36,139 nt of DNA from Deltaproteobacteria bacterium (GTDB lineage: Bacteria > Desulfobacterota > DSM-4660 > Desulfatiglandales > HGW-15), in NCBI GenBank assembly GCA_016931115.1, contig JAFGFM010000142.1, positions 1 to 36,139 on the forward strand, in the 5' to 3' direction. The position numbers were made by a program, and so were the translations under genes. Below are positions 2,409 to 35,279 of the stretch, piece after piece (the stretch's first letter is position 1; each line of letters opens with the position of its first letter). The notes beneath the pieces were generated by a model. It was not told where the DNA came from, ran no database searches, and saw only the letters and a program-made list of their open reading frames with translations.

Positions 2409-3046
2409 CTAATTGTCCAGTAATAACATGATCACGGGTGTTATATGATGCCCCTCTCCCGGCTGTCCCTGATTATCCCTGTTTTCAAATGCACCTGTAT
2501 CAGGGGCTGCTCCTGCGTAATCATCATTGATACCAGGGATTATAAGCCCCCTGTCAATAAGAGGGCTTCCTGAAGAGAGGGTATAATCACCTGATGCAGG
2601 ATCAGAAAAGCCTGGCACGCATGATAACCCGTCCTTAAACTCATTATCCTGGATCACATTCCTATGGGATTTACGTTTAATGCTGATGCCAAGGTCATTT
2701 GAAGAAAAGAGGCACTTTTCTACAACAATATCACTTGATGTATCTATATATATTGCCTTGGCATAGGAGCCCTGTCCATAATACCTGAATGTGATATTGG
2801 AGATACGTATATGGGCGCGCCCGGATAAATAAAGGGCATTGTTATACCGTGACACCCGGAAGCTGTTTTATACAGGAGATCTACTGTGGAATCCTGATCC
2901 GGGTCATCTGCCGAATCAATTTCTACGATCATACCCATTGAGTTAAAGGTGCCGTAAAGCGACAGTGTGGCATCTCCAAGAGAGTGCTGAGGTAAAAACA
3001 GTATTAATGCAGCAGGTAAAAAATACAGGTAAAGGCGTATTTTCAT
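2409..3046 (-). pseudogene. Decayed right-handed beta-helix surface protein
   Basis: The 5' part starts at the ATG at 3044-3046 after a GAGGGGTG ribosome site and gives a signal peptide (MKIRLYLYFLPAALILFLPQ) and the start of an Ig/FN3-like segment ending near DLLYKTA. The 3' part, in another frame, gives beta-helix rungs (ISNITFRYYG, IVVEKCLFSSN, NVIQDNEF) and the usual closing segment (SGSPLIDRG, DTGAFE). The two frames overlap at about 2744-2855. Family members are several hundred residues long; here only ~210 codons remain, so large internal deletions plus a frameshift are implied. Family assignment is from rung pattern and ending, not from a search. Confidence 0.7.
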
Positions 3047-3180
3047 ATTACACCCCTCTCTTAACATTGAAAAAGGACGGATTATATCAGATTTTTACTT
3101 TTACTATATTAAGGAGTATGATTTCTCATAAGAGATTTCAATATCCTTTTAATGATTTGTAAATATATTAAGAGGTGCTT

Positions 3181-3358: not shown

Positions 3359-4060
3359 ATGAAACTCAGGGTAAAAGATGCAGCAGAGCTGCTAAAGGTC
3401 TCAGAAAAGACCATATACAGGTGGATAGCACAGGACAAGCTGCCCATGCATCAGGTAAACGGGCAGTACAGGTTTAACCGTGCAGAACTCCTTGAATGGG
3501 CTACCTCAAACCGTGTGCCGATTTCACCCAGGATGATGGAAGAACCGGAGGATGCATTTATACCCTCTCTTGAGGAGGCATTAAGGTCTGGTGGTATCCA
3601 TTACAGGGTAGAGGGAACAGACAAGGTCTCTGTATTAAGGAGCGTAGTCAACATCCTTTCATTGCCGGACGGTGTTGACAGGGAGTTTCTATTCCAGGTG
3701 CTCCTTGCAAGGGAATCATTAGGCTCAACGGCTGTAGGCGACGGGATAGCGATCCCCCATGTGCGTAACCCTATTACCCTTCATGTGACAAAACCCCTTA
3801 TGGCCCTCTGTTTTCTTGAGACACCCATAGATTTTCAGGCAATGGATGGAAAACCGGTTCATACACTCTTTACCATTGTGAGCCCTACCATTAAGGCACA
3901 CCTGAACCTCCTGTCAAAACTCTCTTTAGGGCTGCGTTCACCCGCATTCGCCAGTGTAATAGCAAATACAGGTTCAAGGGAGGATATCTTCCTGGAGGCA
4001 GGCAGGCTTGATGCAACCCTGACAATGGTTCACTCAAAGGAAAAGAATCAGGTGAAATGA
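3359..4060 (+). CDS. HTH (excisionase/MerR-type) - PTS EIIA fusion regulator
   Basis: The 233-residue protein has two parts. Residues 1-55 form a helix-turn-helix of the excisionase kind (VKDAAELLKVSEKTIYRWI, then a wing with YRFNRAEL). Residues about 70-220 are a fructose/nitrogen-type EIIA domain, with the usual motif GDGIAIPHVR placing the phosphorylatable histidine at residue 134. In known EIIA domains this histidine takes a phosphate from HPr or NPr. Here the fusion suggests a transcription factor whose DNA binding responds to phosphorylation. No EI, HPr or sugar permease gene lies in the window, so a transport role is unlikely. Its stop overlaps the start of the next gene (ATGA), so it is co-translated with the membrane complex that it probably controls. 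Confidence 0.82.
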   Translation: MKLRVKDAAELLKVSEKTIYRWIAQDKLPMHQVNGQYRFNRAELLEWATSNRVPISPRMMEEPEDAFIPSLEEALRSGGIHYRVEGTDKVSVLRSVVNILSLPDGVDREFLFQVLLARESLGSTAVGDGIAIPHVRNPITLHVTKPLMALCFLETPIDFQAMDGKPVHTLFTIVSPTIKAHLNLLSKLSLGLRSPAFASVIANTGSREDIFLEAGRLDATLTMVHSKEKNQVK

Positions 4061-6033
4061 CAATATATCTGATATTACTCGCTCTTATTATTATCTGTGC
4101 AGGGGGGGTAGTGGCACTGTTTACAGGCGCTTCATATAAAGCCGCAACCTGGATTGGTGTTGCATCTTCCATTCTGGGGGCAGCATGCGCCATTTTTGCC
4201 GCCGGTTCTGCCCTGTTTTGCGGTTATCACACCTCTATACATATGGCCTGGCAGATCCCGTTCGGCTCATTCTATATCGGTCTTGACCCACTGTCCGCAT
4301 TTTTTGTTGTCACCATATCTATAGTATGCGCCATTGCGGCCATCTATGGCGCTGGTTATCTTAAGAGCTACAGCGGCAGAAAAAAGATCGGCGCTGCATG
4401 GTGTTTCTACAACCTCCTTTTTGCCTCAATGCTGCTGGTCGTTATCGCAAGAAACGGCATCCTCTTCCTGATTGCATGGGAGATAATGTCTATTGTCTCA
4501 TTCTTTCTTGTTATATTTGAGCATGAAAAAAAAGAGGTACGCGATGCAGGGTGGGTATACCTTGTGGCTGCACACATTGGGCAGGCATGCCTTATGTGTC
4601 TGTTTATTATGCTTGCAGGGGGGAACGGCAGTCTTGATTTTGATTTATTTTCAGTCTCTGCTGATAAAAGCGCCCTGTTTATGCTGGCACTCATAGGGTT
4701 TGGCGTTAAGGCAGGGTTTATGCCCCTGCATGTGTGGCTCCCTGATGCACATCCTGCTGCCCCTTCAAATGTCTCTGCTGTTATGAGCGGGGTGATGATC
4801 AAGACAGGTATATATGGCATCATACGCATAATATATATTTTAGGCATTCCCGCACAGTGGTGGGCCTATACACTTATCGTTATCGGTGCAGTATCTGCTG
4901 TTACAGGGATACTTTTTGCAATGGCACAGCGTGACATTAAAAGGCTGCTTGCATATTCAAGTGTGGAAAACATCGGGATTATCATCTCAGGTCTGGGGCT
5001 GTGGCTCCTTGGCCTCTCAATGAATAATATGGTTATTGCCGGTTTCGGGTTGATAGGCGCACTTCTGCATCTTGTTAACCATGCCTTTTTCAAGACCCTT
5101 TTATTTTTCGGGGCAGGCTCAGTTGTTCATGCAACAGGGACAAGAAATATTGATCTCATGGGGGGGCTTTTAAAACGTATGCCCCATACAGCCCTCCTTT
5201 TTGGGATAGGGGCCGCTGCTATATGCGGGTTTCCTCCCCTGAATGGTTTTATAAGCGAATTTTTTATATACATAAGCGCCTTTAATCTCCTCACCTGTAA
5301 AGTACAGGGAGGGCCTGTTGAAGGAGGGCTTATTGCCATAATATCGCTTTGTATCACCGGTGGGCTTGCTGCTGCCTGTTTTTCCAAGCTATTCGGTATA
5401 ATATTCTTAGGTGAACCGCGAAGCGAGCATGCAGCCTCCGCACATGAGGCAAACGGGTCCATGCTTGTGCCCATGATGATAGTTGCCATCCTCTGTATCT
5501 TTATCGGGCTTTTAAGCCCCATCGCAATCAGATTCATAGCCCCTGTAGTAGAACAGCTCACAGGGTCCGGAAATGCAACAGTGCCCTTAAGCATGGCAAG
5601 CGGCCTGCTTTACAAAATCAGCCTTGCCGGTCTGTCAGTGGTAGTAGTTGTATCTCTATTATGGTGGGTGCGTTATCTGCTCCTTAAAGGACGGGTTAAC
5701 ACGAAAGGGCCGACATGGGACTGCGGTTACCTGTTTCCATCATACCGCATGCAGTATACCGCTTCATCATTTTCATTGCCTGTAATTAACATGTTCAGGT
5801 GGATAATAAGGCCATCTCTGAATGTGGAGATAATGAAGGGATATTTTCCTGTTAAAGGAAAGGTCTCTACCCATACGGATGATATATTCCGAAAAAGGTT
5901 CTTTAATCCCATATTCAGATTTGTAGAGGTGGTGGCTCATAAGGTCCATAAGCTCCAGGAAGGGCGCAACCAGCTCTATGTGCTCTATATTGCCATAACA
6001 GTTCTTGTACTGTTACTTATCAAGTTGAGGTAG
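4057..6033 (+). CDS. hyfB: HyfB-like proton-translocating antiporter subunit
   Basis: A 658-residue polytopic membrane protein of the NuoL/NuoM/MrpA superfamily, with length and C-terminus typical of HyfB/HycC of group 4 complexes (GPTWDCGY followed by a long terminal extension). The residues needed for proton relay are present: Glu142 in WEIMSIVSF, Lys218 in GFGVKAGFMPLHVWLPDAH, His225 and Lys249 in GVMIKTGIYG. It should pump protons or sodium in the inner membrane when the peripheral arm transfers electrons. It overlaps the regulator by 4 bp and abuts the next gene directly. The symbol follows the E. coli hydrogenase-4 naming; the complex itself is not a typical hydrogenase (see the large subunit). 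Confidence 0.88.
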   Translation: MTIYLILLALIIICAGGVVALFTGASYKAATWIGVASSILGAACAIFAAGSALFCGYHTSIHMAWQIPFGSFYIGLDPLSAFFVVTISIVCAIAAIYGAGYLKSYSGRKKIGAAWCFYNLLFASMLLVVIARNGILFLIAWEIMSIVSFFLVIFEHEKKEVRDAGWVYLVAAHIGQACLMCLFIMLAGGNGSLDFDLFSVSADKSALFMLALIGFGVKAGFMPLHVWLPDAHPAAPSNVSAVMSGVMIKTGIYGIIRIIYILGIPAQWWAYTLIVIGAVSAVTGILFAMAQRDIKRLLAYSSVENIGIIISGLGLWLLGLSMNNMVIAGFGLIGALLHLVNHAFFKTLLFFGAGSVVHATGTRNIDLMGGLLKRMPHTALLFGIGAAAICGFPPLNGFISEFFIYISAFNLLTCKVQGGPVEGGLIAIISLCITGGLAAACFSKLFGIIFLGEPRSEHAASAHEANGSMLVPMMIVAILCIFIGLLSPIAIRFIAPVVEQLTGSGNATVPLSMASGLLYKISLAGLSVVVVVSLLWWVRYLLLKGRVNTKGPTWDCGYLFPSYRMQYTASSFSLPVINMFRWIIRPSLNVEIMKGYFPVKGKVSTHTDDIFRKRFFNPIFRFVEVVAHKVHKLQEGRNQLYVLYIAITVLVLLLIKLR

Positions 6034-6957
6034 ATGATGGATATGAAACTCTTTGGGCCTGTCATACATATACTGCTTGCGCTTGTAATATCGCCTCTTC
6101 TTATGGGTATAATAAACCGTACAAAGGCTAAATTTGCAGGGAGAAAGGGGCAACCCCTTTTACAGCCATATTATGACATCATAAAACTTTTAAGGAAGGG
6201 CTCGGTCTACAGCACTACCACTACATGGGTTTTCAGGCTTGGCCCTGTGGCAGGCCTTTCTGCCATGATCATTGCCATCCTGATTATCCCTTCGGGCGGG
6301 ATAAACAGCCTGCTTTCATTTCCATGCGATTTTATTCTTATGGCATACATACTCGGTGTGGCGCGGTTTCTTACAGTAACAGCCGCACTTGATACAGGAT
6401 CACCCTTTGAAGGGATGGGGGCAAGCCGTGAAATGCAGTTTGCCATCCTTGCCGAGGTGGTGATGTTTATGGGGGTTGCTGTTCTGGCTGTTGGAACAGG
6501 TAAGATAAGCCTTTCATCCATCTATTACACACTGTGGGACAGCAATTTTACCAATATTGCCCCGGCCGTTTTTCTTGTGGCCCTGTCATTTTTGATAGTA
6601 CTTCTGACTGAAAATGCCAGGATACCTGTGGATGACCCGAACACACATCTTGAACTTACCATGATACACGAGGTAATGGTACTTGACCACGGCGGGGTTG
6701 ACCTGGCCCTCATACAATACGGTTCATGTCTCAAGCTATGGCTCTTTTCATCACTCCTCGCTGGCATGGCAATCCCTGTAAGGACAGGCATTATGATAGT
6801 TGATATGGGGATAAATACAGTCGGGATTTTGCTGATATCAGTATTCGTGGGTATTATTGAATCAGGCATGGCCAGGCTGAAACTTCTGCACATCCCCCAG
6901 ATGCTTCTTGCTGCCTTCTCTGTTACAGCAGCCGCATTTCTATGGGTCTTGAGGTGA
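6034..6957 (+). CDS. hyfC: HyfC-like membrane anchor subunit (NuoH family)
   Basis: A 307-residue membrane protein of the NuoH/HyfC/EchB family, which joins the peripheral electron-transfer arm to the pumping subunits. Visible family motifs are GASREMQFAILAE, where conserved Arg and Glu line the subunit interface, and RIPVDDPNTHLELTMIHEV, the acidic loop seen in HyfC proteins. At least seven hydrophobic segments can be counted. The start codon follows the previous stop with no gap; three in-frame ATGs fall within the first four codons and the first is taken here, since GTTGAGG just upstream fits it. Length matches the usual ~310 residues. Confidence 0.88.
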   Translation: MMDMKLFGPVIHILLALVISPLLMGIINRTKAKFAGRKGQPLLQPYYDIIKLLRKGSVYSTTTTWVFRLGPVAGLSAMIIAILIIPSGGINSLLSFPCDFILMAYILGVARFLTVTAALDTGSPFEGMGASREMQFAILAEVVMFMGVAVLAVGTGKISLSSIYYTLWDSNFTNIAPAVFLVALSFLIVLLTENARIPVDDPNTHLELTMIHEVMVLDHGGVDLALIQYGSCLKLWLFSSLLAGMAIPVRTGIMIVDMGINTVGILLISVFVGIIESGMARLKLLHIPQMLLAAFSVTAAAFLWVLR

Positions 6958-6960
6958 TTT

Positions 6961-7602
6961 ATGACAACATGGATTGATATATTTTTACTGGCCCTTGTAC
7001 TAACTGATTTCCGTCTGCTGGCATCAAGCCGTCTGGGCGCTATTATACAGACCACCGTGTTCCAGGCCGTTTCATTGAGTGCATGTATGCTTTTGATGGC
7101 AGTGAGGCCTATCTCTATCTATATTATAGCGCTTTCTATTGTTACCTTTACAGTAAAGGGTATTATCCTGCCCTGGCTTTTAAGAAGGGCAATGAGGGAG
7201 GCTGATGTGCAGAGGGAGGTAAGGCCAATAATTGGTTACAGCGCATCTGTGCTCATAGGGGTTGTACTCCTGGGCCTGAGCTTCATTATCTTTATGCCAA
7301 TGAAAGAGACTGTATCAGGCTCTGCCTTTCTTATGCCAGGGGCGCTTTTTACCACCCTGACCGGTCTTATGATGATTATTTCAAGAAAAAACGCACTCAC
7401 ACAGGTTGCAGGGTACCTTGTCATGGAAAACGGGATTTATGCCTTCGGTGTAATACTTGCTGTAGAGGAACCGCTGCTTATTGAGATGGGTGTACTCCTG
7501 GATGTCTTTGTGGCGGTATTTGTCATGGGCATTACCGTGTACCAGATTTCCAGGGAGTTTGACCATATTGACACGGACAGACTCTCAGAACTCAAGGATT
7601 GA
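6961..7602 (+). CDS. hyfE: HyfE-like membrane subunit (NuoK/MrpC-related)
   Basis: A 213-residue hydrophobic protein in the hyfE position. Family members of about 215 residues carry a NuoK-like core, seen here in the second half as ISRKNALTQVAGYLVMENG followed by EEPLLIEMGVLLDVFVAV, with conserved glutamates inside membrane helices. It starts 3 bp after the preceding stop and ends 4 bp before the next start. It should sit between HyfC and the antiporter subunits and extend the line of polar residues through the membrane. Confidence 0.85.
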   Translation: MTTWIDIFLLALVLTDFRLLASSRLGAIIQTTVFQAVSLSACMLLMAVRPISIYIIALSIVTFTVKGIILPWLLRRAMREADVQREVRPIIGYSASVLIGVVLLGLSFIIFMPMKETVSGSAFLMPGALFTTLTGLMMIISRKNALTQVAGYLVMENGIYAFGVILAVEEPLLIEMGVLLDVFVAVFVMGITVYQISREFDHIDTDRLSELKD

Positions 7603-7606
7603 TATT

Positions 7607-9085
7607 ATGCTTATTACCATTGTCCTTATTCCTGTTTTGCTTGGAGCCCTTTCCATTGTACTTCCATATAAAAAGATAAGGAGAGGAATCCTGGTTGCAG
7701 GTTCAATATCTCATTTGACCCTGACTGTTATCCTGGGTTTTATGCGGAATAATGCATATGATACAGGTGACTGGATCGGGCTCGATAATCAGGGGCTATT
7801 GTTTCTGGCTATAACCAGCATACTGTTTTTAATGGTCTCAATATATACGGCAGGCTATTTGTGGAGAGAGTCTGATCGCAATGTTGAGGACTCGGTTGAG
7901 GGGTTCTATTTCAGGAACGAACCGGAGAGAATGTTCATTGCCTGCCTGCTTTTTTTTCTGGCAACCATGAGTATGGTATGCATAAGCAGGCATATGGGGC
8001 TTTTGTGGGTTGCTATTGAGGCCACAACCCTGGTTAGCGCACCGCTTATAAGCTTTCATAAACATCACAGGAGCCTTGAGGCCACGTGGAAGTACCTGCT
8101 CATATGCTCTGTGGGTATTGCTGTAGCGCTCCTTGGCAATTATTTTATGGCCTTTGCAGCACACCAGGAGGTATCCTTGAACCTGGATAAACTTATAGGA
8201 AACGCAGGCTTTCTTGATCAAAAATGGCTGAAGGCCTCCTTTCTTATGCTGCTTGTAGGGTATGGCACAAAGGCAGGCATTGCGCCCATGCACACATGGC
8301 TTCCTGATGCACACAGCGAGGCACCTTCAATGGTCTCTGCATTGCTTTCAGGCGCATTGCTCAACTGTGCATTCCTGGGCATCATGAGATCACACTCGAT
8401 CCTTTTCGCATCAGGCCTTGGTGATTTCAGCGGGGGGCTAATGGTCTTCTTCGGGATGCTCTCAATCGTATTTGCCGCTGCTTTTATGATTCGCCAGACC
8501 GATTACAAACGCATGCTCGCATATTCAAGCATAGAACACATAGGCATACTTACACTTGGCGCAGGCATCGGAGGTATTGCAGGGACAGGCGCAATGCTCC
8601 ATGCTGTAAATCACTCACTTACCAAGGGCATGCTGTTTATTATTTCAGGGCAGATACTCTATTTGTACGGGAGCAAAAAGACCTCTGATGTACACAATAT
8701 AGCAAAAACAACACCTTTTACCGGGATATTCTGGATGGTCGGGTTTCTGGCCATTACTGGCACCCCGCCCTTTGGCACCTTTATAAGCGAGATTACCATA
8801 TTATATGGAATAATCGGCGCTGGCAGATGGGGGATCGCAGCAGGGTATCTGCTTGGGCTTGGTGTTATTTTTATAGCCATGGCAAGGATCATGATCAACA
8901 TGTCCTTTGGAGGAAACTTGAACAGCCGCATTATTGAAAAGCTAAAAGAGCTAAAGGGCGTACCTTTATGGTATACTGCCCCTGTGATAATCATGGCCTT
9001 CATAATATTATCTCTTGGAATCTATGTCCCTGATGCCCTCTTTCGTTTTCTTGCGAATGCAGCAGGGCTGACTGGAGGTTTATAG
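7607..9085 (+). CDS. hyfF: HyfF-like antiporter subunit
   Basis: The second NuoM/NuoN-like subunit, 492 residues from the ATG at 7607. The frame is open further upstream, but only inside hyfE. Conserved are Glu138 (WVAIEATTLVSAP) and Lys222 (YGTKAGIAPMHTWLPDAH). In contrast to HyfB, the position 31 residues after that lysine, where HyfB has Lys249, is Asn253 (GALLNCAFLG). This may be normal for HyfF-type proteins or could alter the proton path; I cannot decide without an alignment. The C-terminus has further helices and no long amphipathic arm. Spacing to both neighbours is under 5 bp. Confidence 0.86.
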   Translation: MLITIVLIPVLLGALSIVLPYKKIRRGILVAGSISHLTLTVILGFMRNNAYDTGDWIGLDNQGLLFLAITSILFLMVSIYTAGYLWRESDRNVEDSVEGFYFRNEPERMFIACLLFFLATMSMVCISRHMGLLWVAIEATTLVSAPLISFHKHHRSLEATWKYLLICSVGIAVALLGNYFMAFAAHQEVSLNLDKLIGNAGFLDQKWLKASFLMLLVGYGTKAGIAPMHTWLPDAHSEAPSMVSALLSGALLNCAFLGIMRSHSILFASGLGDFSGGLMVFFGMLSIVFAAAFMIRQTDYKRMLAYSSIEHIGILTLGAGIGGIAGTGAMLHAVNHSLTKGMLFIISGQILYLYGSKKTSDVHNIAKTTPFTGIFWMVGFLAITGTPPFGTFISEITILYGIIGAGRWGIAAGYLLGLGVIFIAMARIMINMSFGGNLNSRIIEKLKELKGVPLWYTAPVIIMAFIILSLGIYVPDALFRFLANAAGLTGGL

Positions 9086-9086
9086 G

Positions 9087-10592
9087 ATGCCGGGTTCCAG
9101 TTTTATCAGGACAGTAAACGCTGAGGCGGTTGATTTCAGGGATATCCCTGTTATGGATTTTGCTGATTTCCGGGAGTCAATAATTGAAGAGATAAGGGCA
9201 GGGGGGCGTATTTCAGCCATGCCTGCCTGTCCGGCTGAGGATGGCCTTCTAAGGATAATCGCAGTGCTATCCCTGCCAGTATCGGGTGAAATACTTATAG
9301 GGTCAACCTGCATAAATGGGTCATGGCCATCTATCACTCCTGACTGCACTGCTGCACACTGGTTTGAAAGGGAGATCGCCGAGATACATAGTGTCACACC
9401 AAACGGGCATCCCTGGTTAAAACCGATACGTTTCCAGCCACCACATGATATCTCTTTGCAGGAATATTCCCTGCAATGCGGCAATGCAAAATTCTTAGGC
9501 CTTGATGGGGAAGAGTCACATGAGGTGGCTGTAGGGCCAGTTCATGCAGGGATTATTGAACCTGGTCATTTCAGATTTTTATGCCATGGGGAGACAGTAT
9601 ACCACCTTGAGATATCATTAGGCTACCAGCACAGGGGCATCGAAAGGGCCATGAAAGGGGGGCCTGGTGTCAGAGCCCTGCACTATATGGAAACTTTAGC
9701 AGGAGATACAACAATAGGGCATGCTACAGCATACTGCATGGCGATTGAGGCATTGTCAGCTATATCTGTGCCGCCCCGTTCACTTGCCATAAGGGCCATA
9801 GCAGCGGAACTGGAACGGATAGCAAACCATGTTGGTGACCTGGGCGCACTTGCCGGTGATGTTGGTTTCTTACCCACAATGAGTTACTGTGGCAGGATTA
9901 GGGGAGATGTGTTAAACATGACCGCCCTTTTATGCGGGAATCGCTTTGGCAGGGGGCTTGTGCGCCCATCAGGCACGGCCTTTAATCTTGATAAAAATCT
10001 GATCGATGAACTCATGTTGCGGCTTAAATCAACAGAAAAGGATATTACCTCTGCTGTTGAACTCATGTTTGACACACCATCGGTGCTGTCAAGGTTTGAG
10101 GGAACAGGCGCATTATCAGAGGAAACAGCAAGGGAGGCAGGGCTTGTAGGTGTGGCTGCAAGGGCAACAGGCATGAACTGTGATGTGAGGAATGAATTCC
10201 CTTATGGTATGTACTGTTTTTCACAGCTGCATGCATGCACCTGGAATACAGGCGACTGTTTTGCCCGCGCCTATGTAAGATGGCTTGAGATCAGGAGCTC
10301 CATCGAGTTTATCAGAACACAGCTACTAAATTTACCAGACGGGCCTGTATCATGCAAAACCGCGCCAATCAGTAAAGAAAAGATTACTGTCAGCCTTGTA
10401 GAGGGGTGGAGGGGAGAGATATGCCATGTGGCGGTTACGGACAAAGAGGGGCGATTCGCATTTTATAAGGTGGTTGACCCCTCATTTCATAACTGGTTCG
10501 GGCTTGCTTTGGCCCTGAGAAATCAGCAGATATCTGATTTCCCATTATGTAATAAGAGTTTTAATCTGTCATATTGTGGACATGATTTATAG
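9087..10592 (+). CDS. Fused 30K-49K large subunit without Ni-Fe ligands (Ehr-type)
   Basis: A 501-residue protein. Residues ~1-135 form a NuoC/30K-like domain (HWFEREIAEIHSVTPNGHPW), and ~145-501 a NuoD/hydrogenase-large-subunit domain (GPVHAGIIEPGHFRF, GYQHRGIE, ELERIANHVGDLG). Group 4 [NiFe] hydrogenases bind the metal with two CxxC pairs. Here the first site reads METLAGDTTIGHA (201-213) and the second VVDPSFHNWFGLALA (463-477), so no cysteine is left in either. The fold is otherwise intact and the protein ends as Ehr-type subunits do (KSFNLSYCGHDL). It therefore cannot bind Ni-Fe in the usual way. It is best read as the catalytically recast subunit of an energy-converting hydrogenase-related complex whose substrate is unknown. 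Confidence 0.88.
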   Translation: MPGSSFIRTVNAEAVDFRDIPVMDFADFRESIIEEIRAGGRISAMPACPAEDGLLRIIAVLSLPVSGEILIGSTCINGSWPSITPDCTAAHWFEREIAEIHSVTPNGHPWLKPIRFQPPHDISLQEYSLQCGNAKFLGLDGEESHEVAVGPVHAGIIEPGHFRFLCHGETVYHLEISLGYQHRGIERAMKGGPGVRALHYMETLAGDTTIGHATAYCMAIEALSAISVPPRSLAIRAIAAELERIANHVGDLGALAGDVGFLPTMSYCGRIRGDVLNMTALLCGNRFGRGLVRPSGTAFNLDKNLIDELMLRLKSTEKDITSAVELMFDTPSVLSRFEGTGALSEETAREAGLVGVAARATGMNCDVRNEFPYGMYCFSQLHACTWNTGDCFARAYVRWLEIRSSIEFIRTQLLNLPDGPVSCKTAPISKEKITVSLVEGWRGEICHVAVTDKEGRFAFYKVVDPSFHNWFGLALALRNQQISDFPLCNKSFNLSYCGHDL

Positions 10593-10600
10593 AGAGAATT

Positions 10601-11371
10601 ATGATCAATATTATAAAGACACGCATACAGCAGAAATACAGGACCTTTGTTTATCCGGATGGCCCTCCTCCTGAATTACCCCCCAGGTTTGTTGGACGCC
10701 CTGTTGTGAGCAAGGCGCAATGCCTGCATGAGGAGTGCGGAAAGTGTGTATCCATATGTCCTGTGCAGGCAATTTATCTATCTCCTGAAACAAAAGGACC
10801 AATAATTGATACAGGCAAATGCATATTCTGCCGCCAGTGCGAAGGTGCATGTGTTAATGGGGTTATACAATTCAGCAGGAATTATCAGCTTGCTGTATCT
10901 GAGCCTGAAAATCTTCTTGTTAAGGCAGGGGTGCCTGATCATTGTGATGCAAGGAATAAAGTTGCAGAGAAACTGTTTAAAAAATCCCTGAAATTAAGGC
11001 AGGTATCTGCTGGTGGCTGCAATGCATGCGAGGCAGATACAATTGTTTTAGGTACACTCGCATGGGATTTAGGCCGTTTCGGGATGCAGTTTGTTGCGAG
11101 CCCGAGACATGCTGACGGGATACTTATTACAGGGCCAGTTACCCGGAATATGCATGAGGCGCTGTTAAAAACCTACAGGGCAGTTCCTGAACCAAAGATA
11201 GTTATTGCCGTTGGCTCATGCGCCATATCAGGTGGCCCATTTTATGATCACCCGGAGCAGAATAACGGGGCAGGGGGTATTGTTCCGGTTGATCTCTTTA
11301 TACCGGGCTGCCCTCCTCATCCGCTTACGATTTTTGATGGGCTTTTAAGGTTTACAGGCAGAATAAAATAA
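10601..11371 (+). CDS. HyfH-HyfI fusion: ferredoxin plus NuoB-like small subunit
   Basis: 256 residues. The N-terminal half holds two [4Fe-4S] sites: Cys41, 46, 49, 53 (an unusual CX4CX2CX3CP) and Cys74, 77, 80, 84 (standard). From about residue 130 it becomes a NuoB/HyfI small subunit with GGCNACE (Cys140, Cys143), GSCAISGGPF (Cys207) and PGCPPHP (Cys237), so all four ligands of the proximal cluster remain. Electron transfer through this subunit is thus still expected even though its partner lacks Ni-Fe. In hydrogenase-4 these are two separate genes. It is the last gene of the operon, 8 bp after the large subunit, with an AGAGAG-like ribosome site. Confidence 0.87.
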   Translation: MINIIKTRIQQKYRTFVYPDGPPPELPPRFVGRPVVSKAQCLHEECGKCVSICPVQAIYLSPETKGPIIDTGKCIFCRQCEGACVNGVIQFSRNYQLAVSEPENLLVKAGVPDHCDARNKVAEKLFKKSLKLRQVSAGGCNACEADTIVLGTLAWDLGRFGMQFVASPRHADGILITGPVTRNMHEALLKTYRAVPEPKIVIAVGSCAISGGPFYDHPEQNNGAGGIVPVDLFIPGCPPHPLTIFDGLLRFTGRIK

Positions 11372-24333: not shown

Positions 24334-24852
24334 TTGACAGATATTTCTACTATAAGGGATCGGGTATTTGAGCTTATTGAGCCGCTGCTTTATGACATGG
24401 GGTATGAACTGGTTGAGGTGGAATACCTGTCAATTTACGGGCGCTGGGTTTTAAGGCTGTACATAGACAAGGAAAATGGTGTCACCATAGATGACTGCGC
24501 TGATGTAAGCAGAGAGCTTGGTGACATAATTGATATAAAAGAGATCATTGATCATGAATATGTACTGGAGGTTTCATCCCCCGGTCTTAATCGCCCATTA
24601 AGAAGAGAGAAGGATTTTGTGAAGGCTACAGGCAGTAAGATTAAACTTAAAATGAAACAGGCTGTCAACGGGCAAAAGAGTTTTACAGGCATATTGAAAA
24701 AGTGCGCTGACCGGACAGTTTTTCTTGAATCATCTGGAAATATAATAGAATTGCCTTTTAACGATATTGAGAAATCAAACATAGTATATGATTTTGATAA
24801 TATTAAAGAAGGTACAGTTAACAGCACAAATAATGGAGTGAATCTAAAATGA
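24334..24852 (+). CDS. rimP: Ribosome maturation factor RimP
   Basis: 172 residues. RimP helps mature the 30S subunit. The N-terminal domain (LIEPLLYDMGYELVEVEY, RLYIDKENGVTIDDCADVSR) and the ending of the first domain (DHEYVLEVSSPGLNRPL) are textbook family motifs, followed by an SH3-like C-terminal part. The start is a TTG at 24334, fitted by the family's N-terminus and a GGGGAAA upstream; no ATG is available in the right place. The end overlaps nusA by 4 bp. Confidence 0.9.
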   Translation: MTDISTIRDRVFELIEPLLYDMGYELVEVEYLSIYGRWVLRLYIDKENGVTIDDCADVSRELGDIIDIKEIIDHEYVLEVSSPGLNRPLRREKDFVKATGSKIKLKMKQAVNGQKSFTGILKKCADRTVFLESSGNIIELPFNDIEKSNIVYDFDNIKEGTVNSTNNGVNLK

Positions 24853-26150
24853 CTTCAGATTTATTGAAAGTATTGGAGCAGGTAGGCCGTGAAAAGGGTG
24901 TTGAGAGAGAGACTTTAATTGAGACCCTTGAAGAGGCAGTAAAGGCTGCTGCAAGAAAAAAGCTTGGGCAGAACTATGATCTTGAAATAAAGTTCAATGA
25001 AGAGATGGGTGAAATCGAGGTGTTTGAATTCAAGGAGGTCGTTGAAAAGGTAGAAAATGAAAGCCTTGAGATATCACTTGAGGATGCCCATGAGGTTGAC
25101 CCGGATGCTGTTATAGGTGACAGCCTTGGAATAAGGATGGAAACAGATGAACTCGGCAGGGTTGCTGCACAATCGGCAAAACAGGTGATAATGCAAAGGC
25201 TCCGCGAGGCTGAAAGAAATGGTGTCTTTGATGATTTCAAGGACAGGCGCGGTGAGATCATAAACGGTATTGTCCAGCGTTTTGACAAAGGCGCTATTAT
25301 AGTAAATCTTGGCAAGGCAGAGGCAGAGCTTCCCACCAAGGAGCAGATACCCAAAGAGACCTACAAACAGGGTGACAGGGTAAGGGCTTACATACTTGAG
25401 GTCAGGCAGTTCAGCAGAGGGCCTCAGATAATACTTTCCAGAACACATCCCAACTTTTTATCCATGCTATTCGAGAATGAGGTGCCTGAAATTTCAGAAG
25501 GTATTGTAAGCATTATGCAGGTTGCACGTGAACCGGGCAGCAGGGCCAAGATTGCAGTAATGTCAAAGGATAGCGATGTTGATCCGGTAGGGGCATGTGT
25601 TGGTATGAAGGGTTCCCGGGTTCAGGCTGTTGTGCAGGAATTGAGGGGGGAAAAGATAGATATTGTTACATGGGATAATGACCCTGCAAAATTTATATGC
25701 AATGCCCTTGCACCTGCTGAAATTACCAGGGTAATCGTGGATGAAATCAATCACTCTATGGTTGTTGTTGTGCCTGACGATCAGCTTTCTCTTGCAATAG
25801 GCAGGAGGGGTCAGAATGTAAGGCTGGCATCCAAGATATCAGGCTGGAATCTTGATGTGACCAGCGAGACTGACTACAATAAAAATCTCAAAGACTCATA
25901 TACTTCACTCTTAAGCCTTGAGGGCGTGGGTGAGGCTATAGCAACTGAACTTTATCAGGAAGGATACCGGTCAATAGCGGATGTCGCATCAGCCAATTTG
26001 GCTGAACTGGCAAATGTAGAGGGACTGAATGAAAAGGATGCGGCCCAGTTGATTGCTACTGCAAAAGAATATCTTCAGGATTCTGGCGCGAATGTAACAG
26101 GGGCAAAGGCGGACAGCGATAAAAAAGATTCAGATAACGCTGATGAGTAG
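24849..26150 (+). CDS. nusA: Transcription elongation/antitermination factor NusA
   Basis: 433 residues. Domain order: N-terminal RNA-polymerase-binding domain (~1-125), S1 domain (~135-200, GIVQRFDKGAIIVNLGKAE), KH1 and KH2 (~205-345, GACVGMKGSRVQAVV and LAIGRRGQNVRLASK), then a single helix-hairpin-helix region (~365-415, SLEGVGEAIATELYQEGY) in place of the two acidic repeats of E. coli NusA. A charged tail ends the protein. NusA also binds the leader RNAs of its own operon in some bacteria, and the hairpin before rimP may be a target. The 3' end overlaps the next gene by 8 bp. Confidence 0.93.
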   Translation: MTSDLLKVLEQVGREKGVERETLIETLEEAVKAAARKKLGQNYDLEIKFNEEMGEIEVFEFKEVVEKVENESLEISLEDAHEVDPDAVIGDSLGIRMETDELGRVAAQSAKQVIMQRLREAERNGVFDDFKDRRGEIINGIVQRFDKGAIIVNLGKAEAELPTKEQIPKETYKQGDRVRAYILEVRQFSRGPQIILSRTHPNFLSMLFENEVPEISEGIVSIMQVAREPGSRAKIAVMSKDSDVDPVGACVGMKGSRVQAVVQELRGEKIDIVTWDNDPAKFICNALAPAEITRVIVDEINHSMVVVVPDDQLSLAIGRRGQNVRLASKISGWNLDVTSETDYNKNLKDSYTSLLSLEGVGEAIATELYQEGYRSIADVASANLAELANVEGLNEKDAAQLIATAKEYLQDSGANVTGAKADSDKKDSDNADE

Positions 26151-26388
26151 ATTTACAGGGCATGTCCCGATAAGGACATGTGTATCATGCAGATCAAAAA
26201 TGGCGAAAATGGAGCTGATCCGGCTGGTTGTCAATGGGGATAACAGGATAGTTGTTGATAAGCTCAAAAAGGTTAATGGCAGGGGAATATACATCTGCAA
26301 TGATTCAACATGCATGGAGAGATTTCTTAAGAACAGGGATTATGGCAGGTTTTTCAGGACAGATAAAGATATTAAACCTGGATTTTAA
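26143..26388 (+). CDS. ylxR: YlxR/RnpM-family RNA-binding protein
   Basis: 81 residues. It has the two marks of the family: PIRTCVSCRSK near the start and NGRGIYICND in the middle. RnpM/YlxR proteins modulate RNase P in firmicutes and occur between nusA and infB in most bacteria, as here. It starts inside the end of nusA. The cysteines (C13, C16, C52, C57 by count) may bind metal, as suggested for some members. Confidence 0.87.
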   Translation: MSRFTGHVPIRTCVSCRSKMAKMELIRLVVNGDNRIVVDKLKKVNGRGIYICNDSTCMERFLKNRDYGRFFRTDKDIKPGF

Positions 26389-26538
26389 GCCATGAAAAGG
26401 CAGGATGATTTTTTTTACACTTTTAAGGTACAGGTAATCAGGTTTCAGGTGGGAAAAGCCTTTAAGCATTAATTATTTTATAAGCATCTGTTTTATTCCT
26501 AAGGAATGGAAAACAAGAAGGGTTTTGCGGGGGATTAA

Positions 26539-29358
26539 ATGTCTAAAGTAAGGGTCTATGAACTGGCCAATGAACTAAAAATTGACAACAAGGAACTGGT
26601 TGACAGATTGAAAGCCGGTGGCATGTCTGTAAAAAATCACATGAGCACCCTTGATGACAATGATATTAGAAGGGCAAAAGAAATAATTAAGGCCGGAAGT
26701 GTGTCCGAAGTCATTGAAGAAAAACGGCTCCAGAGAAATGTAATACGCAGGAGGAAGGTCGTTCAGGTTGAAGAAGCTGAGACAATAGAAGAAACCATGA
26801 AGGCAGAGCCTTTGCCTGAAATGGAGCCTGAAATTGCTGCCCCGGCTAAAGAACCATCTGCCAGGATTATTAAAAAGGCATCCACCCCCGAAACTGGAAA
26901 AAAAGTCAAAGAGGTTGCCACCCATGTTTCCCAGGATATGGCAGCCATTGAAGATCATATGGAATCCGGGGCCGGGGTTAAGGAGGTAGCTGAAGAGGAA
27001 AAGACAATCGAAGTTGAAGCGCAGCTTGAAATTGATGATACAACCGGGGAGGCCGAAACCGGGGCACCTGATATAGAAGAGGCTGAGACAGAGCAGGATG
27101 AAGCGCTGGACAGTGAGAGAGCTGAAGAAAAGGGCCAGGAAAGGGTATCAGGCAAAAAGCAAAAAAAGAGGCTTAAAGACAGACCCGCCAGGATTATCAG
27201 ACTGCCGGAACCGGTTGTTGTAAGCCCTAAACAGGACACATCAAGGGACAAGGTTAAACAGACGATCGTTAAGGAATCAAATGAGTACAAACGGAAGGAA
27301 ATAGTAAGAGAATCAGGTGAGTACAAACGAAAAGAAATTATTCCAGTCGCTGCTCCCGGTATGGAATTGTTTGACGATGAGTCTGATGGTAAGAAATCTA
27401 AAAAAAGGAAAGACAGAAAAAAGGGTGAAAAACCTAAAAAGGAAGTGGAGTCAGATGTCCGCTTAAAGCACAGGAAGCTTGAGGTATTTGAACGTGCTGA
27501 TCTATATGAAGACAGAGGCCCAAGATTAAAGGACAGAAAAGCAACAAAGAAGTCAAAGGACGGTGTTAAAAGACTTAAACAAACCGAAATTACTACGCCG
27601 AAGGCAAGCAAGAGAAGGCTCAAGGTACCTGAAAATGTAACTGTTTCTGATCTTGCCAAGGCAATGGGTGTAAAGGGCGCAGATCTAATAAAATTGCTAA
27701 TAAAGATGGGTGTTATGGGAAACATCAATATGCAGATCGATTTCGAGACCGCATGCCTTGCAGCCGATGAATTCGGGTATGAGCTTGAACTCGATCAGTT
27801 TGAAATGGAGGTTAAACTGGATGAGCTTACAGATAAACCTGAGGATCTAAAACCCAGGCCGCCTGTTGTGACCATAATGGGGCATGTTGATCATGGCAAG
27901 ACCTCACTTCTGGATTACATACGCAGTTCCAATATAATTGCCGGTGAATCAGGTGGTATCACTCAGCATATAGGCGCCTATTATGTTGAAAGAGAGAGCG
28001 GTGATATTGCTTTTCTGGATACCCCAGGGCATGAGGCCTTTACAGCAATGAGGGCAAGGGGCGCAAAGGTAACAGATATAATTATACTTGTTGTGGCTGC
28101 TGATGATGGCGTAATGCCGCAGACAAGGGAGGCAATCAATCATGCAAGGGCCGCAAAGATACCAATAATTGTGGCCATCAACAAGATGGATAAACCAGAG
28201 GCAAATCCTGACAAGGTTATAAGGGAGCTGGCAGAGCTTGAACTTACACCAGAAGAATGGGGCGGTGATACCATATTCGGTAAGATATCCGCTAAAACAG
28301 GACAGGGCGTTGATGAGCTGATGGAGCTTATACTCTTGCAGGCAGAGATACTTGAATTAAAAGCAAATCCAAACAAGCATGCAAAGGGAACGATCATTGA
28401 GGCTCAGCTTGATAAGAGCAAAGGCTCTGTTGCAACGGTACTTATTAAGGAAGGAACACTCAGGCAGGGCGACCATTTTATATGCGGTGAGAACTACGGA
28501 CGTATCAGGGCCATGCTCAATAACCGCGGTAAAAAGCTTAAGGAGGCCACACCCTCTGTGCCTGTAGAAATATACGGCATTTCAGGTGTGCCAAAGGCCG
28601 GAGACGAATTTTATGTTGTCCCTGATGAAAAAACCGCTAGACAGATTGTTGAACACCGCCAGGCCAAGATAAAAGAGAAGGAGAGGGGAAAGAGTGACAT
28701 TGTAAGCCTTGATGACCTCTATGAAAAGATACGTGAAGGGGCTATCAAAGAGCTCAATATTATCATCAAGGCGGATGTACAGGGTTCACTTGAGGCGCTG
28801 ACTGAGTCTCTAAATAAACTGGCCACAGAAGCTGTAAAAATCAGGGTTATACATTCATCAACAGGGGCCATCACTGAATCTGATGTCATGCTTGCTACAG
28901 CATCAGGGGCCATAATCATTGGCTTCAGGGTAAGGACCAACGCCAGGGTGGTTCAGATAGCTGAAAGAGAAAGTATAGATATCAGGTACTATGATGTAAT
29001 CTATGATCTTATTGAAGATATCAAGAAGGCAATGGCAGGTCTGCTTGAGCCAATATACAAGGAACATGTTATAGGTCATGTTGAGATCAAACAGATATTT
29101 ACTGTGCCAAAGATAGGCAAGATTGCCGGTTGTTTTGTATCAGACGGAGTGGTTGAACGAAACTCAATGGTCCGTCTCCTGAGAGATAATGTTGTTATTT
29201 TCAGCGGTAAATTAGCATCCCTCAGGCGGTTACAGAATGATGCCAGGGAGGTTCAGGCAGGCTATGAATGCGGTGTGGGGCTTGAATCATTTCAGGATAT
29301 AAAGCCGGGTGACATCATTGAGGCATACAGGGTAGAGGAGATTAAGGCGGAGCTGTAA
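26539..29358 (+). CDS. infB: Translation initiation factor IF-2
   Basis: 939 residues. An IF2N domain (1-50) is followed by a long charged linker (50-370) with a 12-residue duplication, a second IF2N-like domain (~370-430), and the GTPase: [37 protein letters not shown] and SAKTGQGV. The C-terminal domains bind initiator tRNA. The ribosome site is a GGGGG run 5 bp before the start. A 150 bp gap separates it from ylxR; it holds only A/T-rich sequence and could contain a second promoter. Confidence 0.95.
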
Positions 29359-29363
29359 ATAGG

Positions 29364-29651
29364 GTGGTTATAGGAGCAATGTCCATAGAGCTTTTTATCC
29401 ATGAAAATAATTCGCTTAAAGGTAAGAGAAGGATCGTTAAAAGCATTATTGGAAAGGTAAAAAGCAGGTTCAATTTGGCCATAGCCGAGGTCGAATACAA
29501 TGATAAGTGGCAGAGGATAGGTCTGGGCATAAGCGCAGTAGGTAATGACAGGGGACATATAGATTCTGTACTTGCAACTGTACTAACCTTTATAGAATCC
29601 CTATACCTTGCTGAGATAATCGATTCCAGGATCGAGATAATTAATGTTTAA
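29364..29651 (+). CDS. ylxP: DUF503 (YlxP-like) protein
   Basis: 95 residues. The family begins 'MVVG..KIELFIPES.SLKEKR' and here the frame gives MVIGAMSIELFIHENNSLKG from a GTG at 29364; I prefer it to the ATG 15 bp later, whose AGGAG is only 2 bp away. WQRIGLGISAVGNDRGHIDS is the conserved centre. DUF503 proteins lie between infB and rbfA in many bacteria and are thought to help ribosome assembly, without a proven role. Confidence 0.84.
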   Translation: MVIGAMSIELFIHENNSLKGKRRIVKSIIGKVKSRFNLAIAEVEYNDKWQRIGLGISAVGNDRGHIDSVLATVLTFIESLYLAEIIDSRIEIINV

Positions 29652-29697
29652 ATAACCTGTTTTGATGTGCTGGTTATAAAAGGGTTTAATACGAAAA

Positions 29698-30054
29698 ATG
29701 GCGTCAGGAAAGAGAGCGACAAGGGTAGGTGAACAGATCCTGAGATTTGTAGCCGAACTTCTTATGACCAGGGTAAGAGACCCGCGATTAAAGGGAGTAA
29801 CCCTTACCGGTATTAACCTGAGCAATGACCTGAAAAATGCCAGGATATTTTACAGTGTTCTGGGTTCCAAAGAGGAGGCAAAGCAGGCGTTAACCGGACT
29901 TGACAGTGCAAAGGGTTTTATCAAGAGGGAGTTGGGTTCAGGACTTAAACTCAGAAATGTGCCTGACATTATATTCGATCATGACCTGACACTTGAAACC
30001 GGTAACCGTATTGAACAGCTTTTTAAGAAGATTCAGGATGATGATAAAGAATAA
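29698..30054 (+). CDS. rbfA: Ribosome-binding factor A
   Basis: 118 residues with a KH-like fold. Motifs: RATRVGEQILRFVAELLMTR, VRDPRLKGVTLTGINLSNDL, and the C-terminal VPDIIFDHDLTLETGNRIEQ. RbfA assists late 30S maturation and cold adaptation. The gene for the DHH phosphoesterase NrnA, which often follows rbfA, is absent; truB comes next after 11 bp. Confidence 0.92.
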   Translation: MASGKRATRVGEQILRFVAELLMTRVRDPRLKGVTLTGINLSNDLKNARIFYSVLGSKEEAKQALTGLDSAKGFIKRELGSGLKLRNVPDIIFDHDLTLETGNRIEQLFKKIQDDDKE

Positions 30055-30065
30055 GAAGAGAGCGT

Positions 30066-31001
30066 TTGTCTGAAAAAATATATGAAATTCCTCCGGATGG
30101 TATACTGCTGATCGATAAGGAAAAAGGGAGGAGCTCCTTTGATTCGGTCAGGATGGTTAGACGGATACTAAAGTGCAAAAAGACGGGTCATGCCGGCACG
30201 CTTGACCCTTTTGCCACAGGGCTTTTGATACTGCTCCTGGGACAGGGAACAAAATTATCTCCCTATATTATGGGGGGAAGAAAAAAATACAGGGCAGAGA
30301 TCAGGCTTGGTATTGAAACTGATACGTATGATTCTACCGGGCTGGTAACAAAAGAGATGCCTCTCCCTGAGCTGGGAGCAGAGAGTATACATAAAGAGAT
30401 TGCTGGTTTTACAGGGGTTATTGAACAGGTTCCCCCCGCTTTTTCAGCATTAAAGGTCAATGGTGAGAGGGCATATAAACTTGCCCGCAGGGGCATAAAT
30501 GTAGAGCTGAAAAAGAGAGAGGTTACTGTTTATTCCATAGATGTAATGGATATAAAACTGCCCCTGATCACAGTTGATGTAATATGCTCCGCAGGGACAT
30601 ACATAAGGAGCCTTGCACTGGACATAGGTAAAAGGCTTGGTACTGTTGCCCATTTGCAGGATTTAAGGAGAATATCGAGCGGGCAGTTTAATGTTGATGA
30701 TGCCATTGTATTAAAGAACCCGGATTCGATTGATAAAAAGGGGCTGTTAGAAAGGGTAATACCCCTGGAAAGGGCTCTCCCGGAGATGATAACAGTAAGT
30801 ATTGATAATCATCTGGCAAAGAGGATCAGAAACGGTTACAGGCCCCTGTGGAATGAACTTGATTTGAATAATAAATTATCCAGTGTTGAGCAGGGTAATA
30901 TAAAACTGATGGCAGGTTCTGACTTTGTGGCTATGCTTGAGATAGAGACCGCCATGATCAACAGTGATAGATGGCTTAAGAAGATAAAGGTGTTTAATTA
31001 A
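30066..31001 (+). CDS. truB: tRNA pseudouridine-55 synthase
   Basis: 311 residues. TruB makes pseudouridine 55 in the T loop of tRNAs. The catalytic aspartate is in GHAGTLDPFATGLL, and KKYRAEIRLGIETDTYDSTG and CSAGTYIRSLALDIG are also family motifs. A PUA-like tail closes the protein. The start is a TTG at 30066 with AAGAGAG upstream; the reading from there matches the usual start 'GILLIDKEKG' about ten residues later. Confidence 0.92.
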   Translation: MSEKIYEIPPDGILLIDKEKGRSSFDSVRMVRRILKCKKTGHAGTLDPFATGLLILLLGQGTKLSPYIMGGRKKYRAEIRLGIETDTYDSTGLVTKEMPLPELGAESIHKEIAGFTGVIEQVPPAFSALKVNGERAYKLARRGINVELKKREVTVYSIDVMDIKLPLITVDVICSAGTYIRSLALDIGKRLGTVAHLQDLRRISSGQFNVDDAIVLKNPDSIDKKGLLERVIPLERALPEMITVSIDNHLAKRIRNGYRPLWNELDLNNKLSSVEQGNIKLMAGSDFVAMLEIETAMINSDRWLKKIKVFN

Positions 31002-31014
31002 AAACAGAAATAGA

Positions 31015-31047
31015 GGCTAAAAGATTTTTATTAAAATATTGTTAGCC
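31015..31047 (+). promoter_or_regulatory. Hairpin in the rpsO leader
   Basis: GGCTAA (31015-31020) and TTAGCC (31042-31047) pair, with ATTTT/AAAAT inside. It lies ~50 bp before the S15 start and may be part of an autoregulatory leader or a weak terminator after truB. The A/T-rich inner sequence also contains promoter-like elements. Confidence 0.35.
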
Positions 31048-31098
31048 AGAGGTAATTAATTAATTTTATGGTTTCCAATTTTTAAGGAGGTATGGAAA

Positions 31099-31368
31099 GT
31101 GGTACTAACTACAGAAACAAAAAAAGAGATAATCGAAAAATTCAAACTGCATGGAAAGGATACTGGTTCACCGGAGGTGCAAATTGCCCTTTTGAGCAAC
31201 AGAATCAGTTATCTGACAGATCATTTCAAGACCCATAAAAAGGATCATCACTCAAGAAGGGGTCTGTTGAAACTGGTAGGGCAGAGAAGAAAACTGCTTA
31301 ATTATTTAAAAAAGTCTGAACTGGCAAGGTATCAGCAGATAATAAGTGAGCTTGGAATAAGAAAGTAG
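31099..31368 (+). CDS. rpsO: 30S ribosomal protein S15
   Basis: 89 residues, full length. Typical sequence: [20 protein letters not shown], then [21 protein letters not shown]15 binds the central domain of 16S rRNA early in 30S assembly and often represses its own mRNA. The start is a GTG at 31099, decided by a perfect AAGGAGG ribosome site 8 bp before; the ATG at 31092 is in another frame. Confidence 0.95.
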
Positions 31369-31409
31369 TAAAAGGGCGTGTGATTTTGCATAGCCCTGTT
31401 AAATGATTA

Positions 31410-31428
31410 GACCATTATACTTATGGTC
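31410..31428 (+). other. Hairpin between rpsO and pnp
   Basis: GACCAT and ATGGTC pair around TATACTT, just before the pnp start. In enterobacteria an RNase III site at this place controls pnp mRNA; whether this small stem does the same is unknown. A second possible stem, AGGGC/GCCCT, lies at about 31373-31397. Confidence 0.35.
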
Positions 31429-31445
31429 ATGAAAGGTAAAAAAAT

Positions 31446-33536: not shown

Positions 33537-33537
33537 C

Positions 33538-34800
33538 ATGTATGAAAAAACAGTTTTAAGTAATGGCATCAGGATAGTTACCGAAAAGATTGACCATTAT
33601 AAGTCCGTGTCCCTTGGTATCTGGGTCGGTACAGGTTCAAGGGATGAAAACAGTATTAACAACGGGGTCTCTCATTTTATAGAGCATATGCTTTTTAAAG
33701 GGACCCCGTCCCGCGATACACTCCTTATAGCCAGGGAGCTAGATGCCATTGGCGGCCTGGCAAATGCCTTTACAGGCAAGGAATACACCTGTTTTCATTC
33801 AAAGGTGCTTGATAAGGATTTTAACAAACTTGTCGAAATCCTCTCTGATATATTCCTCAATTCCAGTTTTGACCCCGCTGAAATAGAAAAGGAAAAACAG
33901 GTTGTTCTTCAGGAAATAAGCATGGTTGAAGACTCCCCTGAAGAGCAGGTGCATGAGTTGTTCAATGCACAGTTTTTCAGCAGCCACCCGCTTGGGTTGC
34001 CTGTTCTTGGCACACCTGAAACGGTTTCCTCCTTTACAAGGGATGGAATCCTTGAATATATGATGAGTTATTACAACCCTGACAGGATAATCATATCAGC
34101 AGCAGGAAACATTGATCATCAGGATGTTGTGAAGGCCTTTGAACAAAGGTTTAAAAGGCTGGAACCATTAAAGAGAGAGATCAGAAAATATTCCCATGCC
34201 CCTTCCTCAAGTATTATCTGCTCATATAAAGAGCTGGAACAGATAAATATAATTATGGGGGGCAAGGCCCCGACCCTTACAAGTAAAATGCGGTTTGCCG
34301 GCGCCATACTGAACACCATACTCGGTGGAAACATGAGTTCAAGGCTGTTTCAGGAGATCAGGGAGAAAAGGGGGCTGGCCTATTCTATATATTCCTTTAT
34401 TTCATCATATATTGATTCAGGTATCTTTGGCGTCTGTGTAGGGAGTGATCCTGATGAGGTTAATAATGTCATTGATGTAATTAATAAAGAGATAATGAAG
34501 ATCGAAGAGGGTGACCTGTCTGAGGCGGATATAGATGAGGCAAGAGAGCACATTATAGGCGGCATACTCCTTGGCTCTGAAAACACTGACTCAAGGATGA
34601 TGCGCATCGCCAAGAATGAATTTATATTCGGCAGATATATAGAATACGAGGAGGTTGTAGATTATCTCAAAAAGGTTACCCTTGATGATATAGTGGAATG
34701 CATGAAACAGTCATTTTTACCAGGGGGTGTAGCCATAACCACACTGGGCTCAGTAAACCGTGATGATCTTGACCTGAGCAGTAATATCTTTTTTTCATGA
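33538..34800 (+). CDS. M16-family zinc peptidase (processing-protease-like)
   Basis: 420 residues from the ATG at 33538, one base after the pnp stop; the frame is open further back but lies inside pnp. The inverted zinc motif HFIEH (46-50) with a downstream glutamate in [20 protein letters not shown] marks an active M16 subunit. [20 protein letters not shown] is the substrate-binding R/Y region. Family members next to pnp and dut (YmxG-like) are common in bacteria. A cytoplasmic role in peptide turnover is assumed; no signal peptide is present. Confidence 0.88.
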
Positions 34801-35255: not shown

Positions 35256-35279
35256 CCAGTGAAACAAAAAGGGTCATAG

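Follow-up and report, generated by a model that had tools for sequence, protein, structure and literature searches.

The gene cluster

The 36,139-nucleotide contig JAFGFM010000142.1 (the window, by which we mean that whole stretch of DNA) is one contig of a 5.18-Mb, 240-contig draft assembly of a deltaproteobacterium that is 98.5% complete, and it carries a gene cluster for an energy-converting hydrogenase-related (Ehr) complex, the subject of this report. An earlier sequence-only reading had described a six-gene operon resembling complex I at 4057-11371. Six co-directional genes do lie there, adjoining or overlapping one another and all with open frames, but that reading missed a seventh gene of the cluster, which overlaps hyfB by 4 bases and encodes a helix-turn-helix (HTH) domain together with an enzyme IIA (EIIA) domain of the phosphotransferase system (PTS) (Table 1). 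A longer frame for hyfF, from a TTG start at 7481, overlaps hyfE and is the less likely choice. Promoter and terminator scans gave signals at chance level.

Table 1. Genes of the Ehr cluster and the active-site segments of its large subunit (TMH, transmembrane helix)
Feature	Position	Strand	Remarks
HTH_17 (excisionase-type HTH) and PTS EIIA-2 (PtsN-like) protein, probable regulator	3359..4060	+	His134 (AIPH) at 3758-3760 is the phospho-acceptor
HyfB/EhrA-like antiporter-type subunit	4057..6033	+	E142, K218, E401 kept
HyfC/NuoH-like subunit	6034..6957	+	TMH5-6 loop is DDPNTHLELTMIHE, replacing the E-rich loop of complex I/HycD
HyfE-like subunit	6961..7602	+	C-terminal part NuoK-like
HyfF-like antiporter-type subunit	7607..9085	+	E138, K222, E395 kept
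Ehr large subunit, 501 aa, fusion of 30-kDa and 49-kDa subunits, HycE/HyfG-like	9087..10592	+	No Ni-Fe cysteines
First CxxC site, A205-G206-D207-T208	9699..9710	+	Within the large subunit
Residues 463-477, second site as proposed earlier	10473..10517	+	Not CxxC; counterpart of HycE AATYANW
True second CxxC site, S495-Y496-C497-G498	10569..10580	+	Close to the large-subunit C terminus
Ehr small subunit	10601..11371	+	Two Fer4 [4Fe-4S] motifs fused to a NuoB/HycG-like proximal-cluster domain; 12/12 ligand Cys

A large subunit without nickel ligands

Sites in the large subunit were mapped by HMMER comparison with Protein Data Bank chains, by MAFFT alignment with Escherichia coli HycE, HyfG, NuoCD, and other proteins, and by structural alignment of an AlphaFold2 model. 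The three methods concur that HycE C241, C244, C531, and C534 correspond to A205, T208, S495, and G498, and the claim of the sequence-only reading that all the Ni-Fe cysteines are lost is borne out. That reading also located the first CxxC site correctly, in METLAGDTTIGHA (residues 200-212), but it misplaced the second: VVDPSFHNWFGLALA (residues 463-477), which contains DPSFHNW, aligns to the HycE stretch CRAATYANW (T502-N505), which is kept throughout NuoD and the hydrogenases, while the second CxxC (HycE DPCYSC) aligns gap-free to the C-terminal SYCG. In the structural alignment, residue 489 of the model pairs with HycE 526. The best structural match of the model is 7z0s_E (HycE; Z 40.9, root-mean-square deviation 2.4, 476 residues), and its mean predicted local distance difference test (pLDDT) score is 90, with a tail (488-501) that falls below 50.

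We take the maturation cleavage of HycE to occur after R537. The large subunit, whose C terminus is NKSFNLSYCGHDL with SYCGHDL as its last seven residues, stops exactly at the end of mature HycE (range, 182-537 [PMC9474812]) and therefore has no maturation peptide.

The replacements at the four nickel-ligand positions are invariant or nearly so across 81 sequences, and the motifs GD[T/S] and NKSFNLSYxG are common to nearly all of these relatives, which come from many phyla, share 50-60% identity, and have about 80 invariant residues. Identical letters stand at these sites in a genome of the same genus (90% identical), in one of the same family (74%), and in 80 relatives from many phyla, which rules out a frameshift or sequencing error as the cause of the cysteine loss. 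A second idea, that C488 and C497 form a new paired metal or disulfide site, is weakened by the loss of each alone in different lineages (3/81 each) and further by the absence of the pair from other Ehr groups.

Placement in the Ehr family and separation from hydrogen metabolism

Ehr complexes have been defined as group-4-like complexes that have lost the CxxC motifs, have no H2 metabolism, and are of unknown function (PMC6349859, PMC10284858, PMC5037454, PMC10432482). The cluster described here has lost both CxxC pairs, encodes antiporter-like and NuoH-like membrane subunits, and includes a NuoB-like small subunit with Fe-S ligands. In a large-subunit tree built without the motif columns, the 38 Ehr sequences all group together in a single clade (100/99) that is sister to HycE/HyfG, apart from NuoD, and not inside the active hydrogenases. 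Based on the tree, the motifs, and the literature, which includes work on Geobacter sulfurreducens (PMC7894505), it is practically certain that the operon belongs to this already described family, as first proposed from the sequence alone; among the bacterial Ehr complexes, it stands close to those of the Geobacter type.

In all probability, the complex is not a hydrogenase. A group 4 [NiFe]-hydrogenase would show two CxxC motifs and Hyp maturation (HypD), and neither is found here. No hyp or formate dehydrogenase gene adjoins the cluster, as had already been observed, and in the whole 98.5%-complete host genome neither HypD nor the NiFe large subunit family PF00374 was found. HypD is absent from 5 of 65 Ehr-bearing genomes (the host, a second member of its genus, and three more, each at least 97% complete), and Ehr is for this reason independent of NiFe assembly; its presence in the other 60 says little because Ehr carriers such as Geobacter have true hydrogenases besides Ehr (PMC7894505). 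The HypD-free genomes thus separate Ehr from hydrogen metabolism and lend indirect support to the view that this particular Ehr would have no part in it.

The family is widespread. Among 395 genomes sampled from the host's phylum, 84 have the Ehr large subunit (near and far matches, to about 35% identity), and at least 574 stretches in the GTDB collection, from many bacterial phyla, hold relatives of it; among viral contigs, 27 pattern matches included no true relative. A further Ehr-like operon, which belongs to another subfamily, lies shortly downstream of the first in a Verrucomicrobia metagenome-assembled genome (locus L098, 12284-19050) and on Variovorax plasmid 3 (locus L133, 14616-19443). 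Several clusters (L058, L071, L074, L080, L092, and others) have two consecutive HyfB-like genes where the window has one, and this doubling may correspond to the EhrA-1 numbering used in Geobacter.

Proton, electron, and ion paths

Taking the roles of the hydrogenase proton-path residues from published work (PMC9474812), we find that this path is kept in the Ehr large subunit: E158 (the Glu of the beta1-beta2 loop), H248, E401, and R442 (the canopy Arg, a Lys in complex I) are present in 81/81 sequences and R359 in 80/81, where H248, E401, and R359 make up the chain; N247 is also kept. These alignments suggest a site that keeps proton delivery and in which the place of the metal or the quinone has been rebuilt.

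The small subunit retains all 12 cluster-ligand cysteines, enough for three clusters, with hydrogenase-type CxxC spacing, and its proximal-cluster loop, GGCNACE, has four cysteines and the same length and CxxC spacing as that of HycG. In both HyfB and HyfF, the TM5 Glu, TM7 Lys, and TM12 Glu are intact. The sequence-only reading was right on both the small-subunit ligands and the HyfB residues, and electron delivery in the window's complex looks intact. Its further proposal, that electron transfer and ion pumping remain under selection, fits this locus and is too strong as a rule for the family because four metagenome relatives and one isolate plasmid have lost at least two proximal cysteines and the Geobacter-type complexes have lost Fer4 cysteines.

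The small subunits of L057 (a planctomycete) and of L105, L109, and L114 (Opitutia and kin), loci that occupy at least two places in the tree, have other residues at between two and four of their four proximal [4Fe-4S] cysteine positions. Cys237 is a Trp in all four, and the last three positions read Glu/Glu/Trp in L057 and L114; the proton-path residues of the accompanying large subunits are conserved. On a plasmid of the isolate Allomeiothermus silvanus (L134, 9269-10141), the small subunit has none of the four proximal cysteines. A search of the 11 genomes behind the loci analyzed found no second close copy in those of L057, L105, and L114, and that of L109 holds a homologue with 42% identity. 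A partial literature search found no description of proximal-cluster cysteine loss in Ehr relatives. In the Geobacter-like loci L121, L044, and L039, several Fer4 cysteines are lost from the small subunit, which suggests that one or more distal clusters are probably missing from the Geobacter Ehr.

A conserved PTS-type neighbor

Of the 52 loci of our locus table that have at least 1.5 kb upstream of hyfB, 36 carry an HTH-EIIA gene next to the cluster or within it, and these come from Planctomycetota, Verrucomicrobiota, Lentisphaerota, Zixibacteria, Acidobacteriota, and Spirochaetota, among others. Across the genomes sampled from the host's phylum, there are 40 strong copies, spread over 39 genomes, of which 37 also have Ehr; for 35 of the 40, the large subunit is no more than 11 kb away, and 29 of these share its strand. 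The phospho-acceptor His134 is kept in 30/30 members of the strong family. In Verrucomicrobiota loci such as L107, L109, and L096, a more distant version of the HTH-EIIA gene separates hyfB from hyfC rather than preceding hyfB.

Based on this linkage, we consider it fairly probable that the EIIA protein regulates the Ehr operon, probably according to the phosphorylation state of the PTS; the conserved gene would thereby hint at when the complex is made. HPr and enzyme I are encoded in the host genome. A partial literature search turned up nothing relevant on a link between EIIA-HTH proteins and Ehr.

All-against-all clustering of flanking open reading frames (80 loci, up to 10 kb on each side) revealed no other conserved neighbor families besides the Ehr and EIIA genes, the remaining frames being mostly antisense shadow frames. 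The candidate of a catalytic partner gene nearby, whether a dehydrogenase or another such family, was rejected on these grounds, and the absence of a conserved neighboring dehydrogenase points to a diffusible donor.

Surroundings and host genome

Polyamine-type ABC transporter genes, seemingly unrelated to the Ehr cluster, begin downstream at 11545, and a housekeeping cluster (NusA, IF-2, PNPase, an M16 peptidase, and a metallo-beta-lactamase-fold protein) occupies 24849-36053, with the GC skew strongly positive from 24 kb onward. On the minus strand at 2409-3067, short beta-helix/NosD-like frames resemble remnants of a larger surface-protein gene. Elsewhere in the host genome, UbiA adjoins MqnA/C/E-like genes (names read from translations) in what is a futalosine-route menaquinone cluster, an RnfC homologue is present, and NuoD was not found in the 240-contig draft.

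A proposed mechanism

In total, we favor an ion pump that is fed with electrons and coupled to protons and whose active site has been rebuilt, an explanation to which we assign a probability of roughly 55%. In this model, a soluble low-potential donor, likeliest ferredoxin, would reduce the two Fer4 clusters, and electrons would then travel by way of the hydrogenase-type proximal cluster into a rebuilt polar cavity made up of the GD[T/S] and NKSFNLSYxGxD motifs. A substrate in this cavity, likeliest menaquinone bound in a noncanonical way, would receive the electrons together with protons delivered via Glu158, and a new redox partner would, as the sequence-only reading supposed, stand in place of H2. 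The redox step would move HyfC and the antiporter-like subunits, H+ or Na+ would be pumped, and the reaction may also run in reverse. Expression would probably be set by the phosphorylation state of the PTS through the adjoining HTH-EIIA protein. The host traits that we count in favor are the futalosine menaquinone cluster, the RnfC homologue, and HPr with enzyme I. Of the parts of this proposal, a redox-driven ion pump is likely, the odds for ferredoxin as the donor are about even, and a quinone as the acceptor is a tentative suggestion; ferredoxin and menaquinone are the most economical guesses.

Several observations weigh against this mechanism. The complex-I ligands of the quinone head group are gone (Nqo4 H38 is I157 and Y87 is G206), and the canopy Asp described as strictly conserved in the superfamily (HycE D529 [PMC9474812]) is N493 in 80/81 Ehr sequences. 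The TMH5-6 loop of HyfC is Ehr specific (DDPxTHLELTMxHE), and with the E-rich loop so altered, coupling may differ from that in complex I. Ferredoxin is suggested by the Fer4 domain alone because no donor gene is linked, and the loss of proximal-cluster cysteines in relatives shows that not every Ehr needs electrons to reach the cavity. As for regulation, the hypergeometric P value of the linkage between HTH-EIIA and Ehr (3e-26) treats genomes as independent although they are related.

Could the same parts serve another reaction? Two alternatives fare about equally, and we regard both as unlikely. The complex might run in the opposite direction, with an ion gradient pushing quinol electrons to ferredoxin to feed biosynthesis. 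The anatomy would be identical to that of the favored pump, such a mode would suit the occurrence of Ehr in aerobes (PMC10284858, PMC6688271), and reverse electron transport has been suggested for the Geobacter Ehr (PMC7894505); however, nothing in the sequence sets the direction, and the RnfC homologue could already supply the host with reduced ferredoxin. Alternatively, the complex might be a formate-linked module that takes electrons from a formate dehydrogenase encoded elsewhere, an arrangement proposed for Riflemargulisbacteria (PMC6349859). In G. sulfurreducens, the Ehr subunits are expressed, and all of them reach higher levels on formate than when hydrogen is present (PMC7894505), and the host genome has several molybdopterin oxidoreductases. 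None of these enzymes is on the Ehr contig, however, and a dehydrogenase is not a conserved neighbor in the 80 loci; the C-terminal metal-site cysteines of HycF (Cys117/120/155/158), which contact HycB (PMC9474812), are absent here, and so are HycB/HyfA themselves.

Less probable again is a sulfane-sulfur (polysulfide) reductase like MBS, in which, the NiFe center being gone, a hydrophobic sulfur substrate would be reduced directly at the proximal cluster. The MBS of Pyrococcus furiosus sets a precedent, having lost NiFe chemistry and lacking Nqo4 H38/Y87 (PMC7684303), for which the Ehr cavity likewise has no equivalents. MBS, however, keeps two of the four Ni-Fe cysteines, whereas Ehr keeps none, and its proximal cluster has three cysteines in a loop three residues shorter (PMC7684303), not the full-length, four-cysteine loop found here; aerobic nitrifiers and methanotrophs, too, have Ehr (PMC10284858, PMC6688271). 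Because the three-Cys cluster loop is not present, aprotic sulfur reduction of the MBS type is disfavored, and we infer that proton-coupled chemistry on some other substrate would take its place.

We also mention, as a long shot, that Ehr could stand as a functional class of its own, the third in the complex-I superfamily: an ion pump, controlled by the PTS and gated by protonation, whose peripheral arm has given up the metal site as well as the quinone ligands and which, in some lineages in which proximal ligands are lost too (Opitutia, a planctomycete, and Allomeiothermus), would operate although no electrons reach the cavity. A hydrogenase remnant that is catalytically silent, or a decaying pseudogene, as the loss of 4/4 Ni ligands might suggest, is extremely improbable, being contradicted by the open genes, the 50-60% identity across phyla with some 80 invariant residues, the new invariant motifs at the cysteine sites, and a proton path kept in 80-81 of 81 sequences.

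Comparison with known systems

What is new here is the conserved PTS-type regulator gene beside Ehr and a corrected map of the active site, which sets the kept proton path against the lost metal and quinone ligands residue by residue. The map, the regulator gene, and the Ehr-bearing genomes that lack NiFe maturation each make the Ehr reaction more testable.

Among described systems, the Ehr of G. sulfurreducens (GSU0739-0745, EhrA/C/L/S [PMC7894505, PMC8691401]) is like the window's complex in its large-subunit clade, subunits, and motifs; the sequences aligned were those of relatives (G. argillaceus and Geobacter sp. AOG1, 53-54% identical) and not the GSU proteins. An HTH-EIIA gene adjoins the cluster in both, on the opposite strand there and co-directional in the window. 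The Fer4 cysteines, partly lost there, are all present in the window, which has one HyfB-like subunit.

The group 4a proteins HycE/HyfG of E. coli (FHL-1/FHL-2) form the sister clade, share the proton path, and give the best structural match of the model, but the window's complex has no Ni ligands, maturation peptide, or HycB/FdhF, and its host genome has no HypD. Pyrococcus MBS is likewise a member of the complex-I superfamily that has lost NiFe and lacks the quinone ligands (PMC7684303); it differs in its two kept cysteines, its three-Cys proximal cluster, and its other membrane subunits. Complex I itself (NuoCD/NuoB/NuoH/NuoL-N) shares the fold and the subunit plan, whereas Ehr has H38/Y87 replaced, a proximal CxxC rather than tandem cysteines, no NuoEFG in its cluster, and a large subunit that falls outside the NuoD clade.

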